Below are positions 29,937-38,564 of a stretch of 46,859 nucleotides of DNA, piece after piece. Numbering within the stretch: position 1 is the first letter of the stretch; each line of letters begins with the position of its first letter. Position numbers and translations under genes: made by a program. The notes beneath the pieces were generated by a model. It ran no database searches. It was not told where the DNA came from and was given only the letters and a program-made list of their open reading frames with translations. The stretch comes from Candidatus Gastranaerophilales bacterium (GTDB lineage: Bacteria; Cyanobacteriota; Vampirovibrionia; Gastranaerophilales; Gastranaerophilaceae), in NCBI GenBank assembly GCA_944323335.1, contig CALUSB010000016.1, positions 1 to 46,859 on the forward strand, read 5' to 3'.

Positions 29937-31035
29937 TGAAAAAACTGACAAAATAATAAAAAATTTAGCCCTTGAAGCAAAAAACTTCGGGGTTAAAATT
30001 TATTTTGTCGGGGGTCTTGTGCGCGATATCATTATGGGTATTGAGCCCTTAGATGTTGATATTTTGGTTGAGGGTAATGCAATTGATTTTATCTCATCGC
30101 TTGATTTTGTTGATATTAAATCCGTTCACAAAGACTTTGGTACCATAAAAACTCAAATCGAGGGCATTGAGATTGATTTTGCCTCAACAAGAAAAGAATT
30201 TTATCCTCTATCGGGTTGTTTGCCCGAGGTAGTTGAGCTTGGCTGCTCTATTGAAGATGACCTTATAAGGCGCGATTTTACAATAAATGCTATAGCGCTT
30301 GAGATTTTAGCAGATGGCAATTATAGACTTATAGATAAATTTAGCGGTTGTCATGATATTAAAAATAAAACTCTTAAAGTGTTGCATAAAAATAGCTATA
30401 TTGATGACCCCACAAGAATTTTGAGGGGTTTAGATTTTAAATTAAGGTTTAATTTTGACTTTAGTGAAAACGATAAAGAGTTGATTAATGAATACCTAAA
30501 AAGCCCGTCTCGCGAGGGGTTGAGTGTTGATAGGGTTATTTTAACGCTAAATAAACTATTTTCTTCAAACTTAAGAGCTAAAGAGGCTTTTAGGGAATTT
30601 GTCGATAAAAAATATTATAGAATTTTATTTGATAATAAAGATTTATCTTGCAAGAAGATTTTTGATGCAATTGAGAAATTTAAAATAGAAGACTATTCAA
30701 AAGTCATTATAAAATATATATTAGACGAGCCTTTTGATGTGCCTGAACTAAAAACACGATTTGAGATTTATAAATATTTTAAACAATTCGACGCTGATGA
30801 AATTTGCGTATATTACACAAATACCAAGGATGAACGGGCGCTTTTGTATTTTAGTAAATTAAAAGATATTAAATTAAACATAAAAGGTTCTGATTTATTA
30901 AACCTTGGGTATAAGGAAGGTAAGCTAATAGGTTTTATGCTTGATAAGGTTCTGGAGGCTAAACTTGAGGAAAATTCAAGTGTTTTAAACTTTAATGATG
31001 AAATTGAATTTGTTAAGAAAAATACCATACTTTAG
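29920..31035 (+). CDS. cca: CCA tRNA nucleotidyltransferase / poly(A) polymerase family protein
   Basis: A 371-aa class II tRNA nucleotidyltransferase. The catalytic head has YFVGGLVRDIIMG and PLDVDILVEGNA, with the two metal-binding aspartates of the DVD motif. DFASTRKEFY and EDDLIRRDFTINAIALEI follow, and then the neck element DDPTRILRGLDFKLRF. It adds or repairs the 3' CCA end of tRNAs. It might be a CC- or A-adding specialist, as occur in some cyanobacteria-like and deep-branching lineages, and sequence alone does not settle this. The C-terminal half is divergent and lacks an HD domain. The start is a TTG at 29920 overlapping accC by 17 nt, with no in-frame ATG before the conserved head. 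Confidence 0.88.
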   Translation: MKIKFSEKTDKIIKNLALEAKNFGVKIYFVGGLVRDIIMGIEPLDVDILVEGNAIDFISSLDFVDIKSVHKDFGTIKTQIEGIEIDFASTRKEFYPLSGCLPEVVELGCSIEDDLIRRDFTINAIALEILADGNYRLIDKFSGCHDIKNKTLKVLHKNSYIDDPTRILRGLDFKLRFNFDFSENDKELINEYLKSPSREGLSVDRVILTLNKLFSSNLRAKEAFREFVDKKYYRILFDNKDLSCKKIFDAIEKFKIEDYSKVIIKYILDEPFDVPELKTRFEIYKYFKQFDADEICVYYTNTKDERALLYFSKLKDIKLNIKGSDLLNLGYKEGKLIGFMLDKVLEAKLEENSSVLNFNDEIEFVKKNTIL

Positions 31036-31057
31036 TATAAGAAATATCAAACACTGC

Positions 31058-31063
31058 TATAAT
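31058..31063 (+). promoter_or_regulatory. Candidate housekeeping -10 upstream of flagellin 1
   Basis: A perfect TATAAT at 31058-31063, without a strong -35. A transcript from here would have a leader of about 250 nt, including the shared flagellin promoter motif and all the hairpins listed below. Confidence 0.35.
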
Positions 31064-31160
31064 GTATTTCCCTTTTAAAAAACATTAATATGGTAATGTC
31101 AAAGACAAGGAAGACAATTTCAAATTTTTGACAAGATGACAGTAAATATTTCCCCGCTTA

Positions 31161-31186
31161 TTACTTTTTAGGTTTTAAGTGAATTA
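31161..31186 (+). promoter_or_regulatory. Conserved flagellin upstream motif, copy 1
   Basis: The 26-bp stretch runs TTACTTTTTAGG, then TTTTAAGTGAATTA. Apart from a one-base indel and a few substitutions it matches 32306-32332, upstream of the second flagellin gene, while the surrounding intergenic sequence differs. It is probably the core of the flagellin promoter. It does not resemble the enteric sigma28 or sigma54 consensus. Confidence 0.55.
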
Positions 31187-31193
31187 TGACCTG

Positions 31194-31214
31194 TCAAAGG
31201 TAGTAAACCTTTGA
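31194..31214 (+). promoter_or_regulatory. Inverted repeat at the 5' end of the flagellin 1 leader (hairpin A)
   Basis: TCAAAGGT (31194-31201) and ACCTTTGA (31207-31214) form a perfect 8-bp stem with a 5-nt loop. It lies just downstream of the conserved promoter motif, so it is either an operator or the first RNA hairpin of the leader. Confidence 0.6.
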
Positions 31215-31271
31215 ATATGAATAGTTATCAGTTTTGTTAAAACTTCTTTAAGGTGGTTCTGACAAAGGTTT
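31205..31271 (+). promoter_or_regulatory. Alternative long-range pairing in the flagellin 1 leader (hairpin B)
   Basis: AAACCTTTG (31205-31213) can pair with CAAAGGTTT (31263-31271), 9 bp. It uses the same segment as the right arm of hairpin A, so the two structures exclude each other. A smaller hairpin, AGTTTT-GTT-AAAACT (31230-31244), lies in the loop of B. Confidence 0.45.
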
Positions 31272-31286
31272 TTATGCCAAGAAATA

Positions 31287-31313
31287 ACAAGGAAGTAAAG
31301 TTAAAAGAAGGAG
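31287..31313 (+). promoter_or_regulatory. Candidate CsrA-binding sites in the flagellin 1 leader
   Basis: ACAAGGAAGT (31287-31296) differs from the CsrA core ACARGGAUGU at one position. The second GGA is in the Shine-Dalgarno AAGGAG (31308-31313), 19 nt downstream. This spacing suits bridging by one CsrA dimer. A related ACAAGGAAGA occurs at 31105-31114. Confidence 0.6.
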
Positions 31314-31322
31314 ATTTACACT

Positions 31323-32195
31323 ATGGCAATCGTAGTAAACACAAACATTCAATCAATTAAGGTTCAAAACAACCTAAACGGCGTTACAGACGCTATGAAC
31401 ACTGCAATGGAGAGAATGACTACCGGTTTGAAAATTAACTCTGCCGCAGATGACGCTGCAGGATTAGTAATTTCAAAAGGTATTGAAGTTCAAACTCGCG
31501 GCTCACAAGTTGCAAAAAGCAATGCTCAATCAGGTATTAACTTATTGCAAACTGCTGAAGGCAACCTTGCTGTTATGCAAGACAACTTTATGAGAATTCG
31601 TGACTTGACTCTTCAAGCTATGAACGGCGGTCAAACACAAGAACAACTTGAAGCTATGCAAGAAGAAGCTACAGCGCGCTTAGCTGAAATTGACAGAATC
31701 GCAACAGGTGCAAAATTTAATTCTTTTGACTTGTTTGGCGGTGCTACTCATGACAGTGACGCTGAAGAAGTAACTCTTCAAATCGGTACCGGTTCTGAAA
31801 CTTCAACAAATACTATCACAATTTCAAATGTATTTAATGACGCTCATGTTTCAACTCTAACAGGCCAGGCCGCATTTACATCAAAATTTGTTGATGGTAC
31901 AGACCCTGCTCAGTTAACTGAAATGCAAGCTCAACTTGACCAACTTGATGTTGCAATTACTGAAATTTCATCAAGAAGAGGTACAATTGGTGCAGTATCT
32001 AACAGATTAAGTTCTGCAATGGAACAATTAGATACTCAATATGAAAACCTCTCAGCTGCAAATTCACGTATTAAAGATGCTGACATCGCTACAGAATCAT
32101 CTAACTACACTCAAAACTCAATTCTGCAACAAGCATCTGCAGCTCTATTGGTTCAAGCAAACCAACAACCAAACATTGCATTGTCTCTCATATAA
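31323..32195 (+). CDS. Flagellin (copy 1)
   Basis: A 290-aa flagellin containing mainly the D0/D1 domains. The N-terminal block is MAIVVNTNIQSIKVQNNLNG, then MERMTTGLKINSAADDAAGL, and the C-terminal block SSRRGTIGAVSNRLSSAMEQL, then NYTQNSILQQASAALLVQAN. The central region is short (about 55 residues), so the filament surface is minimal. It is exported through the gate encoded at 16979-22041. The Shine-Dalgarno AAGGAG is 9 nt from the ATG. Codon use is biased toward that of enolase and EF-G, fitting very high expression. The stop codon is embedded in a perfect 11-bp hairpin. It is very similar to copy 2, including a 254-nt identical 3' segment. Confidence 0.97.
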   Translation: MAIVVNTNIQSIKVQNNLNGVTDAMNTAMERMTTGLKINSAADDAAGLVISKGIEVQTRGSQVAKSNAQSGINLLQTAEGNLAVMQDNFMRIRDLTLQAMNGGQTQEQLEAMQEEATARLAEIDRIATGAKFNSFDLFGGATHDSDAEEVTLQIGTGSETSTNTITISNVFNDAHVSTLTGQAAFTSKFVDGTDPAQLTEMQAQLDQLDVAITEISSRRGTIGAVSNRLSSAMEQLDTQYENLSAANSRIKDADIATESSNYTQNSILQQASAALLVQANQQPNIALSLI

Positions 32196-32218
32196 TTAAC
32201 AAAAAAGGTTAATTATAT
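32190..32218 (+). promoter_or_regulatory. Perfect hairpin covering the stop codon of flagellin 1
   Basis: ATATAATTAAC (32190-32200) and GTTAATTATAT (32208-32218) form an 11-bp stem with an AAAAAAG loop. The TAA stop (32193-32195) is in the left arm. It is AT-rich, separate from the terminator that follows, and absent from flagellin 2. Confidence 0.6.
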
Positions 32219-32223
32219 AAAGT

Positions 32224-32259
32224 AAAAAGCCCTTGACCACACCGGTTTGAGGGCTTTTT
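32224..32259 (+). terminator. Rho-independent terminator after flagellin 1
   Basis: AAAAAGCCCT (32224-32233) pairs with AGGGCTTTTT (32250-32259). Inner ACC/GGT pairing tightens the loop. It separates the two flagellin genes into individual transcripts. Confidence 0.85.
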
Positions 32260-32305
32260 GTATCAAAAAAAATCTTAAGTTTTGTAAAAAAATAAACAAA
32301 TTTCG

Positions 32306-32332
32306 TTAGTTTTTTAGGTCTTGTGTGAATTA
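32306..32332 (+). promoter_or_regulatory. Conserved flagellin upstream motif, copy 2
   Basis: A 27-bp stretch, TTAGTTTTTTAGG then TCTTGTGTGAATTA, matching the motif at 31161-31186. Here it lies 50 bp from the ATG, against about 136 bp for flagellin 1, so this leader lacks hairpins A and B. Confidence 0.55.
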
Positions 32333-32343
32333 CTAAAGTATAC

Positions 32344-32373
32344 ACAAGGAAGTATTTAGTCAATCGAAAGGAG
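32344..32373 (+). promoter_or_regulatory. Candidate CsrA-binding sites in the flagellin 2 leader
   Basis: ACAAGGAAGT (32344-32353) is identical to the site in flagellin 1. The second GGA is in the Shine-Dalgarno AAAGGAG (32367-32373), 22 nt downstream. The surrounding leader sequence differs, so the element itself appears conserved. Confidence 0.6.
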
Positions 32374-32382
32374 ATTCAGATT

Positions 32383-33243
32383 ATGGCTATTGTGGTTAAC
32401 ACAAACATTCAATCAATTAAGGTTCAAAACAACTTAAACAGCGTTACAGACGCTATGAACCAAGCAATGGAGAGAATGACTACCGGTTTGAAAATTAACT
32501 CTGCTGCAGATGACGCTGCAGGATTAGTAATTTCAAAAGGTATTGAAGTTCAAACTCGCGGTACTCAAGTTGCAAAAAGCAATGCTCAATCAGGTATTAA
32601 CTTATTGCAAACTGCTGAAGGCAACCTTGCTGTTATGCAAGACAACTTTATGAGAATTCGTGACTTGACTCTTCAAGCTATGAACGGCGGTCAAACTGAG
32701 GAGCAGTTGGCTGCTATGCAAGAAGAAGCTACAGCGCGCTTAGCTGAAATTGACAGAATCGCAACAGGTGCTAAGTTTAACACATTTGACCTGTTTGGCG
32801 GTGCTACTCATGATGGCGCAGACGAAAAAGTAACTCTTCAAATTGGCACAGGTTCAGATAGCGCTACAAACACTCTTGAAATTTCAGATGTGTTTAATGA
32901 CGCTCATGTTTCAACTTTAACAGGTCAGGCTGCATTTACTTCAAGTTTTGTAGGTACTGATTTGGCTGCTATGCAAGACCAACTTGACCAACTTGATGTT
33001 GCAATTACTGAAATTTCATCAAGAAGAGGTACAATTGGTGCAGTATCTAACAGATTAAGTTCTGCAATGGAACAATTAGATACTCAATATGAAAACCTCT
33101 CAGCTGCAAATTCACGTATTAAAGATGCTGACATCGCTACAGAATCATCTAACTACACTCAAAACTCAATTCTGCAACAAGCATCTGCAGCTCTATTGGT
33201 TCAAGCAAACCAACAACCAAACATTGCATTGTCATTAATATAA
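32383..33243 (+). CDS. Flagellin (copy 2)
   Basis: A 286-aa paralogue of copy 1, shorter by four residues in the variable centre. The N-terminal 130 residues are nearly identical. The last part (32980-33233) is identical in DNA over 254 nt to 31932-32185, including third codon positions. The centre (THDGADEKVTLQIGTGSDSA and the FTSSFVGTDLAAMQ segment) differs. This pattern points to tandem duplication with later gene conversion of the ends. It has its own promoter motif, CsrA-type site and Shine-Dalgarno, so the two flagellins can be set separately. Confidence 0.97.
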   Translation: MAIVVNTNIQSIKVQNNLNSVTDAMNQAMERMTTGLKINSAADDAAGLVISKGIEVQTRGTQVAKSNAQSGINLLQTAEGNLAVMQDNFMRIRDLTLQAMNGGQTEEQLAAMQEEATARLAEIDRIATGAKFNTFDLFGGATHDGADEKVTLQIGTGSDSATNTLEISDVFNDAHVSTLTGQAAFTSSFVGTDLAAMQDQLDQLDVAITEISSRRGTIGAVSNRLSSAMEQLDTQYENLSAANSRIKDADIATESSNYTQNSILQQASAALLVQANQQPNIALSLI

Positions 33244-33268
33244 TTTTGACAGATGTATTTAGATTTTT

Positions 33269-33296
33269 ACCCCCTTGCTTTATATGGCTTGGGGGT
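33269..33296. terminator. Terminator between flagellin 2 and the convergent TPR gene
   Basis: ACCCCC (33269-33274) and GGGGGT (33291-33296) form the base of the stem, with partial inner pairing. A T-rich stretch follows on the plus strand. It overlaps the 3' end of the minus-strand TPR gene (stop at 33280). Confidence 0.7.
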
Positions 33297-33888
33297 TTAT
33301 TTTTTGCTCTATTATTTTTCTAAATTGAATGGCAGGATAGTAATCTTGTACTGATTTTAGTGTTTCATTTATGCTTTTTAGTGCACTTTTATAATCTTGT
33401 TCAAGATAGTAGGACTGTGCTTCTATAAAATGCGCCTCGGGGTCTCCGTAAAAAAGTTTTTTTGATTCTGATAAAAATTTGTGTACAAGATTTAAATATC
33501 CGTTAGCAAATAATGCGCGAGCTATGAATTTATATGTTTCAGGATTTGACCTTACTAAAATATCGCAAGCGCTTATGAGGTTTTCTGCCCAATCAAGATG
33601 TCTGCTTTGTATGAAAAGATTGATATATACTTCTAAAAATGCTCTTACCTGAAAAAATGTCGGGCGCTCTTTAATTTTTAAATCGATAATATTTAATACT
33701 ATAAGCCCCCATTTTGTTGCGATATCAGGGTCTTTTTCTTTTGTCCAGAAGTTTTTAGCCAGTTCCTTATCTCCGCATAAAAGCGCGCATAAACCGCACT
33801 GATAGTTAAGGTTTAGCTCCTTGAACAATTTAAGTGCCTGTTTATAATCCCCTTTGTAGAAAAAATCTTTTGCAAGTTCTTCTGACAT
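33280..33888 (-). CDS. TPR-type helical repeat protein downstream of csrA
   Basis: A 202-aa soluble protein with TPR-like helix pairs. The clearest are near the N terminus (AKDFFYKGDYKQALKLFKEL) and the C terminus (AHFIEAQSYYLEQDYKSALK). Alternating aromatic and alanine residues continue in the middle (RHLDWAENLISACDILVRSN). No signal peptide or membrane helix. It starts 1 nt after the csrA stop (TAA-T-ATG), so it is coupled to csrA-fliW. A role as chaperone or adaptor in flagellin or filament assembly is suggested by position only. Confidence 0.75.
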   Translation of the reverse strand: MSEELAKDFFYKGDYKQALKLFKELNLNYQCGLCALLCGDKELAKNFWTKEKDPDIATKWGLIVLNIIDLKIKERPTFFQVRAFLEVYINLFIQSRHLDWAENLISACDILVRSNPETYKFIARALFANGYLNLVHKFLSESKKLFYGDPEAHFIEAQSYYLEQDYKSALKSINETLKSVQDYYPAIQFRKIIEQKINPQAI

Positions 33889-33889
33889 A

Positions 33890-34153
33890 TTACTGCTTAT
33901 GTTTAAATTTATCTGCTATATTAAAGCTTTTTGCACTTGGTGTATTTATGTTATCAAGTACTTTAACATCAGATATTTTGGACTGCTCGTTTGCTTTTTT
34001 AATTTCTCTGTATATCTCTTCTCTGAATACCTGAACATGGTTTGGCGCTTTTATGCCTATTTTAACCGCATTTTTATATGTTTCAAGTATAACCACTTCA
34101 ATATCATCGTTTATGATAAGTTTTTGGTTTAATTTTCTTGTTAAAATAAGCAT
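33890..34153 (-). CDS. csrA: Carbon storage regulator CsrA
   Basis: An 87-aa protein whose first 60 residues are standard CsrA (MLILTRKLNQKLIINDDIEV, IGIKAPNHVQVFREEIYREI). The RNA-contacting arginine in TRK and the VFREE arginine are present. The C-terminal 25 residues form a polar tail longer than in E. coli CsrA (61 aa). It binds GGA motifs in mRNA leaders to block translation. Its ATG overlaps the fliW stop, and candidate target sites are in both flagellin leaders just upstream of this cluster. Confidence 0.96.
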   Translation of the reverse strand: MLILTRKLNQKLIINDDIEVVILETYKNAVKIGIKAPNHVQVFREEIYREIKKANEQSKISDVKVLDNINTPSAKSFNIADKFKHKQ

Positions 34154-34626
34154 TATTTTGCACCCTCATCAGACTTTTTTTCTTGTTTTTCAAAAAGAGG
34201 ATGCCTTACAGGGAGTTTCGAGTCTTTTAGTATTACCTGCATTGCATTATTGTTTGTAGTGTTAATTACAATGGGCGCTAAAAGGTTTATTGTAGCTGCT
34301 TGAGGGTTAATTTGAGGTATTGTTACTATATTTATTGCAAGGATTTCATCAGCACTCTTGACACCTAGAGTTTGTGCGTCCTCATCACTTAATTCAAATT
34401 GATAATCAATATTAAAATAACTGCAAAGAGTTACAGGAAAAGCTAAATCCATATCTTCCATTGACTGAAGCCATTTAAAAGGCGAATCGGGTCTGTAGTC
34501 AATAAGTGTAAAGCGTTTATGTTCACTGTAGCCGATAATCGGTGAAACAAAGTTAAACAAAAGATTATTGTCTACCTCTACCTCTCCAAAGCGGCTTGTT
34601 TTGATTTTCTCTAAGTTTTTTTCCAT
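34153..34626 (-). CDS. fliW: Flagellar assembly factor FliW
   Basis: A 157-aa FliW. The recognisable stretches are TSRFGEVEVDNNLLFNFVSP, IIGYSEHKRFTLID and PFKWLQSMEDMDLAFPV. NLLAPIVINTTNNNAMQVIL follows near the end. In Bacillus and Campylobacter FliW binds either flagellin or CsrA. Excess flagellin frees CsrA, which then represses flagellin translation. The gene overlaps csrA (ATGA-type) and lies about 1 kb from the flagellin genes, exactly the expected partners. It is 18 nt downstream of the secreted TPR gene. Confidence 0.95.
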   Translation of the reverse strand: MEKNLEKIKTSRFGEVEVDNNLLFNFVSPIIGYSEHKRFTLIDYRPDSPFKWLQSMEDMDLAFPVTLCSYFNIDYQFELSDEDAQTLGVKSADEILAINIVTIPQINPQAATINLLAPIVINTTNNNAMQVILKDSKLPVRHPLFEKQEKKSDEGAK

Positions 34627-36414: not shown

Positions 36415-36667
36415 AAAAGCTCAAGATTTCACCCTGTTTTTGTTTGGCTCCTGTGGGTATCTCGCGCCGTTGCGCTCGATTATCCTACGTCGCCTGTCAA
36501 CGGTTTCATCTTTCGCTTTTTCAACAAAAGCTCAAGATTTCACCCTGTTATTGTTTGGCTCCTGTGGGTATCTCGCGCCGTTGCGCTCGATTATCCTACG
36601 TCGCCTGTCAACGGTTTCATCTTTCGCTTTTTCAACAAAAGCTCAAGATTTCACCCTGTTTTTGTTT
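36415..36667. repeat. 111-bp tandem repeat, 2.3 copies
   Basis: Units at 36415-36525 and 36526-36636 differ at one position that I can see (GTTTTTG against GTTATTG). A partial third unit covers 36637-36667. It fills the gap between the C_GCAxxG_C_C gene and the SLH gene. The unit is much richer in GC than the surrounding intergenic DNA and contains CTCGCGCCGTTGCGCTC. A stretch of the unit (TCGCCTGTCAACGGTT) recurs with two changes at 46830-46845, so it belongs to a dispersed family. Confidence 0.9.
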
Positions 36668-38564
36668 ATTCTCCAAAGGCGATGGTAACTTTTTCTTTAG
36701 GGTTAACTTTAGAAATTGCCATACCGTTTGGGTCTACAAGGTATGTGAGTTCATCAGCCGAAGTTTGAAGAGTACCAAGGGTGCCTGAAAGGGCTGTTCT
36801 TGTCAGGTCAACAGGAGCTTTGAAAGCAGTTTTTAAGCCGTCTTGGTAGCTTCTGCCTGCTGCTCTGAATTTACCTGATAACAATTCGCCCGTACCTGTG
36901 CCTGCTTGGTCAAACAGAGCTTCAGTTGCGTTAGCAAGACCGATAGCCGCACCGCCCACTGTTCTTCCTGCTGTACCTATAACTGAACCTACCCAAGTGA
37001 ATGGGAATTCAATAGCGCGTACAAGGAAGTTAACATCTTTTTGTTTTTGTACCATAGCGGTGTGAACCTGTCTTGGCAGCATTTCTTTGCATTTTCCGTA
37101 AGAAATTTCATTAAATGAAAGTTTAAGTGCGCCGGAGTTGCATTTTGAAGGACGTACAACTTCGGTTACTTTACCTCTTACAGTTGAACCGCAAGGGAAT
37201 GTAGTACCGTTAATTGTAATTTCATTTAATGTTTTTGCAGCAAATTGTTCGCCTACGTTTGCGTTTTTAGCGTTGATAATATCGTTCATTGAAAGCTCAA
37301 GAGTAGGGATTTTTACGCATTGTTCTTTTTCAACGAACATTTTTTCTGTTTTTTCGCAAGGTGCACAAGCTGATTTAACTTCATTGTCATATCCGCCTGC
37401 TACACGTACGCCTTGAAGCATTGAGCTGATTTCAGCTCTTGTTGCTTTTTGGTTAGGACGAATCTTTGAGCTTGCTTCGTCTTTAAGTGCGCCGTTGTCA
37501 ATTGCTTTTGCTACACATTCTCTTGCCCAAGTGGGAACTTGATTTCCGTCTGTGTATTTTGACAATATTTCATCGGCTTTGCATTGGTCCATAGGGCAGT
37601 TAATGCCTTTTGAAAGTATTGCAAGAGCTTCTGTTCTTGTGATGTTGCCGTTAGGTTTAAATAAGCCGTTAGTATAACCTTCTATCATATCAGCGCCAAC
37701 ACCTTTGTTGATGGCTTCGTAAGCCCAGTGAGACTTAGGTACGTCAGGGAAGTTGCCTGCTTCTGTTAAGCATTGGTCTTCAAGATTGTAGCCTTTTACA
37801 ACCATTGTAGCCATCTCGGCTCTTGATACGTTTTTGTTAGGTTTAAAGAATTTATCGGGATAACCTACAACTATACACTGTTCGGTCAAGCGGTTAATAT
37901 CAGCGCTTGCCCAGTAGTTATCGGGAACATCGGGATACATTTGTTCGCCAATGTCGGCTGCCATACCTGTAATATTAGGTATTTCTTCTTTAATTACCTT
38001 TTTTGCATCCATACTTGTCGGTGAAGACACGTTTGGAGCAGGATTGCAGTCTGTTTTTGGCAAATCTTGAATAATGGGTGCCGCAGCGCCTGTAGTGCAT
38101 GAATCATCAACCATTACGCCGTTGTATGCTTCAAGCATGTTGTCGTTAATAATTGCAGTATTTGCATTTTCTCCGACAATTGCTTCATTGGCGTTAGAAT
38201 AGATTGAGTTAGGATAAGCGTATGTTTGGGCTTTAGATAGCGGTGCTTGTTCATACGCGGGAGCTGCTGCTCCTGTGTCGCATCCGCAGTCATTTTTTGG
38301 CATATCGCATCCGCAATCCGGTGCCGGTGCTGCTGCGCCTGTTTCACAAGGGTCGCATTTGTGCTTTTTCTTCTTTTCTTTTTTGCATTTGCAAGGTGTT
38401 TGATTACATTTTTTGCAAACAGCAGTTTCAGGGGTTACTTTTTGAACCGTAGAGTCGGGGCAGCCGCAGTCGTTATTAAGAGGGCATGCGGCAAAGCTTA
38501 CCGGTACGGTAAGAGCAAACACAGAGGCAGCTGTTGCGCAAAGTACGAATTTTTTAATAGTCAT
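36666..38564 (-). CDS. SLH-domain envelope protein with cysteine-rich N-terminal region
   Basis: A 632-aa exported protein from the ATG at 38564, which follows a strong AGGAGG. A longer reading from 38639 is in frame but would start inside a hairpin. Signal peptide 1-25 (KKFVLCATAASVFALTVPVS). Residues 26-100 are cysteine-rich (NNDCGCPDS, CKKCNQTPCKCKKEKKKKHK). TGAAAP occurs three times after Cys-x-containing turns. Three SLH domains follow at about 210-258 (YPDVPDNYWASADINRL), 272-320 (FPDVPKSHWAYEAINKG) and 336-385. SLH domains bind cell-wall polymers, in cyanobacteria-like diderms linking outer membrane to peptidoglycan. The C-terminal 200 residues have a beta-like part and glycine/alanine-rich helices (VIGTAGRTVGGAAIGLANAT). 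It has no OprB-type porin barrel. Confidence 0.88.
   Translation of the reverse strand: MTIKKFVLCATAASVFALTVPVSFAACPLNNDCGCPDSTVQKVTPETAVCKKCNQTPCKCKKEKKKKHKCDPCETGAAAPAPDCGCDMPKNDCGCDTGAAAPAYEQAPLSKAQTYAYPNSIYSNANEAIVGENANTAIINDNMLEAYNGVMVDDSCTTGAAAPIIQDLPKTDCNPAPNVSSPTSMDAKKVIKEEIPNITGMAADIGEQMYPDVPDNYWASADINRLTEQCIVVGYPDKFFKPNKNVSRAEMATMVVKGYNLEDQCLTEAGNFPDVPKSHWAYEAINKGVGADMIEGYTNGLFKPNGNITRTEALAILSKGINCPMDQCKADEILSKYTDGNQVPTWARECVAKAIDNGALKDEASSKIRPNQKATRAEISSMLQGVRVAGGYDNEVKSACAPCEKTEKMFVEKEQCVKIPTLELSMNDIINAKNANVGEQFAAKTLNEITINGTTFPCGSTVRGKVTEVVRPSKCNSGALKLSFNEISYGKCKEMLPRQVHTAMVQKQKDVNFLVRAIEFPFTWVGSVIGTAGRTVGGAAIGLANATEALFDQAGTGTGELLSGKFRAAGRSYQDGLKTAFKAPVDLTRTALSGTLGTLQTSADELTYLVDPNGMAISKVNPKEKVTIAFGE

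Follow-up and report, generated by a model that had tools for sequence, protein, structure and literature searches.

The first of two tandem flagellin genes in a Candidatus Gastranaerophilales genome (G000, 1.67 Mb) is preceded by a structured leader that is real and previously undescribed. The gene lies in the window, by which we mean the whole 46.9-kb stretch of DNA analysed here, one contig of this genome; a TPR gene, csrA and fliW are convergent to both flagellins (Table 1). We consider it probable that flagellin 1 is controlled by a genus-specific, structured leader of about 250 nt together with CsrA repression that is relieved by FliW. The leader would be transcribed from a flagellin-type promoter and is predicted to fold into four local hairpins (P0, B, P1 and D), ending just upstream of a CsrA-type site (site II) and the Shine-Dalgarno sequence. 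One CsrA dimer would bridge these two elements and, most likely, repress flagellin 1 translation there; FliW, bound or released by flagellin, would relieve this repression by analogy with Bacillus. The hairpins may give the leader its shape or guard it and may adjust how accessible the CsrA site is, and P0 may present an additional site that titrates CsrA.

Table 1. Features of the flagellin locus, with positions in the window
Feature	Positions	Strand	Basis
Flagellin-type promoter (AGTAT...TATAAT)	31034..31063	+	aligned in 12/12 flagellin 1 loci and in paralogous flagellin loci
Hairpin P0 (TGTCAAA/TTTGACA), enclosing ACAAGGAAG at 31105-31113, possible CsrA site I	31097..31133	+	fold z and invariant stem
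Hairpin B (TGACAG/CTGTCA; inner TATTT partner and GCTTA/TAAGT)	31137..31196	+	fold z, compensatory changes
Stem P1, TCAAAGGT (31194-31201) with ACCTTTGA (31207-31214)	31194..31214	+	94% of cells paired, 10 genomes
Alternative stem P3, GGTA (GGYA; 31199-31202) with TGCC (31275-31278), nesting outside P2	31199..31278	+	100% of cells paired
Alternative stem P2, AAACCTTTG (31205-31213) with CAAAGGTTT (31263-31271)	31205..31271	+	94% of cells paired
Short hairpin H (AGTTTT/AAAACT), exclusive with D, fitting inside P3	31230..31244	+	one compensatory change, AU>GC in G003
Hairpin D, TTTTGTTA...TGACAAAG	31232..31267	+	98.5% of cells paired
CsrA-type site II (ACAAGGAAGT)	31287..31296	+	conserved in 12/12 leaders aligned
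Shine-Dalgarno AAGGAGAT, putative second GGA for a CsrA dimer	31308..31315	+	invariant in alignment
Flagellin 1	31323..32195	+	Pfam Flagellin_N and Flagellin_C
CsrA-type site before flagellin 2	32344..32353	+	alignment and genome pattern search
Flagellin 2	32383..33243	+	Pfam Flagellin_N and Flagellin_C
csrA	33890..34153	-	Pfam CsrA, 78 bits; matches solved CsrA structures
fliW	34153..34626	-	Pfam FliW, 126 bits; tpr-csrA-fliW order kept in genus loci

The locus and its CsrA-type sites

Sequence elements of FliW-CsrA-flagellin homeostasis are found together at this locus. Both csrA and fliW are present and linked to flagellin, and wherever a genus locus has enough flanking sequence to check, tpr-csrA-fliW comes after the flagellins. 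Aligned to solved CsrA chains, the CsrA protein (87 aa) has a conserved R-E-E-I-Y stretch and an extended C-terminus on which FliW could dock; in Bacillus, FliW acts on a C-terminal extension of CsrA (PMC7652899). A GGA lies upstream of the Shine-Dalgarno sequence and another within it, at bridging distance: their spacing is 18-19 nt in all ten genomes measured and 19 nt in the window, and CsrA dimers bridge 10-63 nt with an optimum above 18 (PMC7652899).

An earlier, sequence-only reading of this DNA had proposed a switchable leader feeding into a CsrA-type site, and the site was borne out: ACAAGGAAG lies at 31287, and AAGGAG (31308) and the ATG (31323) come after it. The pattern ACAAGGAWG has 36 genome-wide matches, whereas its reversed control has 24. 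Three of the 36, at 31105, 31287 and 32344, belong to the two flagellin leaders. Of the two layers of control that had been envisaged, the CsrA layer is well supported at the level of sequence; the switch layer stands only in part, P1 being mostly kept and its alternative P2 lying near chance with a single compensatory change, as set out below.

A structured leader confined to one genus

A CTTTAGTATRAGAAATATCAAACRCNGCTATAAT-type promoter is kept across the regions upstream of the first flagellin in an alignment of 12 genus members and is common to other flagellin loci; none was found before flagellin 2. The pattern AGTATNANNAANNNNNAACNNNNNTATAAT, with one mismatch allowed, occurs in just two places genome-wide, both before flagellins; the second, on C1, precedes another flagellin by 161 nt. 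Because the promoter motif puts the transcript start near 31070, we infer a leader of about 250 nt. The earlier reading had drawn the leader from 31194 to 31313, which is too narrow, since conservation and structure extend upstream to about 31070.

Three other readings of this region were rejected. A start near 31187, taken from TGAATTAT, is not conserved in relatives, unlike the upstream promoter. A transcription attenuator was dismissed, as the T run after D occurs in the G000 clade only and the leader yielded no terminator. A small open reading frame in the conserved P0 element (31096-31131, MSKTRKTISNF) has no Shine-Dalgarno sequence, and its start codon and frame vary; it is therefore probably non-coding, and its conservation was treated as conservation of RNA.

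For ten leaders, the consensus fold is far below that of column-shuffled alignments (z about -4.75, reached by 0 of 300). P0 folds with a mean single-sequence z of -2.6, below zero in all 11 genomes, and its stem is invariant; the GGA of the possible site I within it is predicted to be mostly paired. Hairpin B reaches single-sequence z values of -3.0 to -5.1 in 10/10 genomes and has the best covariation among the leader hairpins. Its outer stem is identical in all ten and recognisable even in the diverged leader of G009, its inner stem has changed in a compensatory manner (U-A to A-U at GCTTA/GCATA, for example), and its interior is rebuilt in G003. P1 is present in most species. Substitution events were counted on the tree from tpr-csrA-fliW, with expectations drawn from the background spectrum; under this one simple null model, which gives figures without p-values on a thin base of 10-11 related sequences from a single genus, pairing was kept in four of eight events in P1 (1.9 expected) and in eight of ten in D (3.7 expected).

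The leader is restricted in its distribution. A 107-nt element comprising P1 and D, sought with a covariance model, is present as one copy each in 10 of the 15 genus genomes, always before flagellin 1, and has no convincing match elsewhere in 288 family genomes. A covariance model of the P0/B half has one match per genome in 11 genus members and no convincing match elsewhere in 288 family or 286 order genomes. A model (R2) found the G003 leader at an E value of 2e-12, G003 being absent from its training set. Within 30900-33300 no Rfam model scored close to its gathering threshold, and a lax threshold returned chance-level matches only. In G009, sister to the window's clade, the P1/D half is lost or replaced. 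G009 and G010 both retain their flagellins and CsrA site without this element, and the P1/D part is therefore dispensable. A 7-bp hairpin, with an alternative partner of 5 nt, is possible in the diverged G009 leader, yet 10% of shuffles allow as much, and this candidate was set aside.

What the hairpins do is a separate matter. Their main role may be to keep an abundant mRNA stable or to shield its 5′ end, with CsrA acting only through site II and the Shine-Dalgarno sequence, as it would before flagellin 2. We regard this as possible, if rather unlikely. The hairpins are conserved while their predicted effect on the Shine-Dalgarno sequence is inconsistent, as such a role would allow, and flagellin 2 has the same CsrA-type site at similar spacing; the long invariant stretches outside the stems, GACAAGGAAGACAATTT and TATTTCCCC, nonetheless exceed the needs of a bare stabiliser. 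Flagellin 2 had been said to lack the control of flagellin 1, and it does lack P0, B and P1/P2, but it has a CsrA-type site of its own and, in relatives, hairpins before it.

Mutually exclusive pairings next to site II

The proposed switch rested on three copies of one 7-mer in alternating sense, CAAAGGT at 31195 and 31263 and ACCTTTG at 31207, and on an 8-bp and a 9-bp pairing (P1 and P2) that both use the middle arm; all of these are present as described. The first 7-mer overlaps the base (3′ arm) of hairpin B and the third is the 3′ arm of the separate hairpin D, and P2, joining the middle to the third, is exclusive with both P1 and D. Two further pairings, P3 and H, are compatible with P2. 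Pairing was kept in 7 of 14 substitution events in P2 (4.7 expected) and in 2/2 in each of P3 and H, the changes in P3 being U-G to C-G, twice on the tree. The earlier reading had named compensatory changes in both stems as a check; P2 has one (CG>UA in G004) and P1 none. The three 7-mers, which its scheme would tie together, vary partly independently (G004, G006 and G014). Both exclusive sets of helices are 97% paired, with two double changes in P2/H/P3 and none in P1/D; the number in the alternative pairings was reached in 32 of 500 control shuffles.

An RNA switch in the leader is plausible. In its explicit form, state 1 would consist of P1 and D, with TATTTCC at 31147-31153 masking site II at 31291-31297, and state 2 of B, P3, P2 and H with site II exposed, so that the fold would decide the access of CsrA. 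A two-state leader of this kind, peculiar to the genus and gating the CsrA site of flagellin 1, would amount to a fold checkpoint atop FliW-CsrA partner switching, and we judge both the mechanism and this wider role unlikely. The helices do split into two mutually exclusive sets, with one compensatory change each in P2 and H and P3 paired in all genomes, and G014, where P1 is destroyed, keeps P3 and a 7-bp P2 in shifted register. When P2 is imposed, the GGA of site II becomes more open in 10/10 predictions (openness 0.56-0.98, against 0.03-0.62 with P1 and D), and imposing P1 and D is predicted to close site II in part, in some genomes through pairing with 31147-31153.

Against such a switch, the event statistics of P2 are near chance, the P1/D element is absent from G009 and G010, and the favoured state differs between species: in whole-leader folding of ten genomes, P2 is favoured in G003, G006 and G014 and comparable in G004, whereas the remaining six, the genome of the window among them, disfavour it by 1.8-3.6 kcal/mol. 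The predicted exposure of the Shine-Dalgarno sequence is independent of the fold state. The masking helix (31147-31153 with 31291-31297) appears in the consensus fold but was rejected: it shows almost no variation and no covariation, it is likely (0.6-0.9) in two genomes only and costs up to 6 kcal/mol elsewhere, being disfavoured in most species, and it is incompatible with the well-supported hairpin B. The coupling of fold to CsrA site is therefore a prediction rather than a result.

We also think it quite improbable that the 7-mer pattern arose by chance, as a by-product of A+T richness in the leader. The triple is by itself only mildly unusual: when the 120-nt stretch is shuffled by dinucleotides, 1.3% of the products contain some sense-antisense-sense 7-mer triple, and such triples occur at several other spots in the window. 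It is raised above chance because the 107-nt element is conserved across 10 genus genomes, with P1 and D kept in most of ten and folding far below that of shuffled alignments; chance might still account for P2 alone. Equally improbable, in our estimate, is that the flagellin 1 mRNA serves as a CsrA sponge through an extra GGA site in P0, since, despite a second ACAAGGAAG at 31105 inside the most conserved block and a precedent in the Campylobacter flaA mRNA leader (PMC4894983), the site I GGA is predicted to lie paired in an inner stem, unlike classical loop sites.

Known systems and other flagellin leaders

The closest known systems are the Bacillus hag leader and the Campylobacter flaA leader, from which the present one differs by being long, genus-specific and multi-hairpin. 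As in Bacillus subtilis hag (PMC7652899, PMC6529632), a flagellin mRNA has two GGA sites, one of them on the Shine-Dalgarno sequence, in company with CsrA and its antagonist FliW. In contrast to hag, the leader described here is about 250 nt long, has four further conserved hairpins and another ACAAGGAAG, is known from sequence alone, and precedes two tandem flagellins in a non-photosynthetic relative of Cyanobacteria. The Campylobacter jejuni flaA leader (SL1, SL2; PMC4894983) likewise holds CsrA sites in a structured flagellin leader, with FliW as antagonist and covariation among relatives; it differs in that the leader probed covered -45 to +99 and its GGA lies in stem-loops, and the text consulted reports no alternative pairing. 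The leaders of E. coli ymdA, moaA and pgaA, which are remodelled by CsrA (PMC7652899), resemble it in coupling mRNA fold to CsrA binding, although no sequence relation is shown and the coupling is only predicted here.

If the favoured explanation of CsrA repression relieved by FliW is true, FliW-CsrA control of flagellin reaches gut non-photosynthetic relatives of Cyanobacteria, and a long structured leader has been added to this control point. No paper in the collection searched names both Melainabacteria and CsrA. Since the alternative pairings share bases beside the CsrA site, the leader is a case in which the joint action of RNA folding and protein partner switching on one mRNA can be put to the test.

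Several minor features were seen around the flagellin genes. A terminator-like stem lies between flagellin 1 and flagellin 2 (about 32222-32262). The flagellin 2 leader (32276-32336) has hairpins in relatives (AAGTTTTGT/ACAAAACTT and TTAGTAATT..CGC/GCG..AATTACTAA) that are degenerate in the window's own copy, and a hairpin related to H is visible upstream of this gene. The palindrome AGTTTTGT was rejected as a regulon operator, with one exact genome match, before flagellin 2; the pattern is too strict for the flagellin 1 copy. At the same locus, G009 has three tandem flagellins and G010 a single one (L039 and L033, respectively), the latter with a hybrid leader in which the promoter region of flagellin 1 seems joined to the CsrA site of flagellin 2. 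Copy number and hybrid leader look like the outcome of recombination between tandem copies.

In a third flagellin type (L012, L013, L014 and L015), ACGGC..AAAAGGA..GCCGT lies about 40 nt before the flagellin start, upstream of the Shine-Dalgarno sequence; it resembles a classical CsrA loop site, and its stem letters vary. Another flagellin, of C1 type, likewise shows a GGA flanked by complementary arms ahead of its Shine-Dalgarno sequence. Finally, open reading frame translations revealed a stretch present twice in tandem at 36440-36690 of the window, which recurs about 200 nt upstream of the flagellin start in L026, where it reads CTCCTGTGGGTATCTCGCGCCGTTGCGCTCGATTATCCTACGTCGCC; it resembles an intergenic repeat dispersed in the genus.
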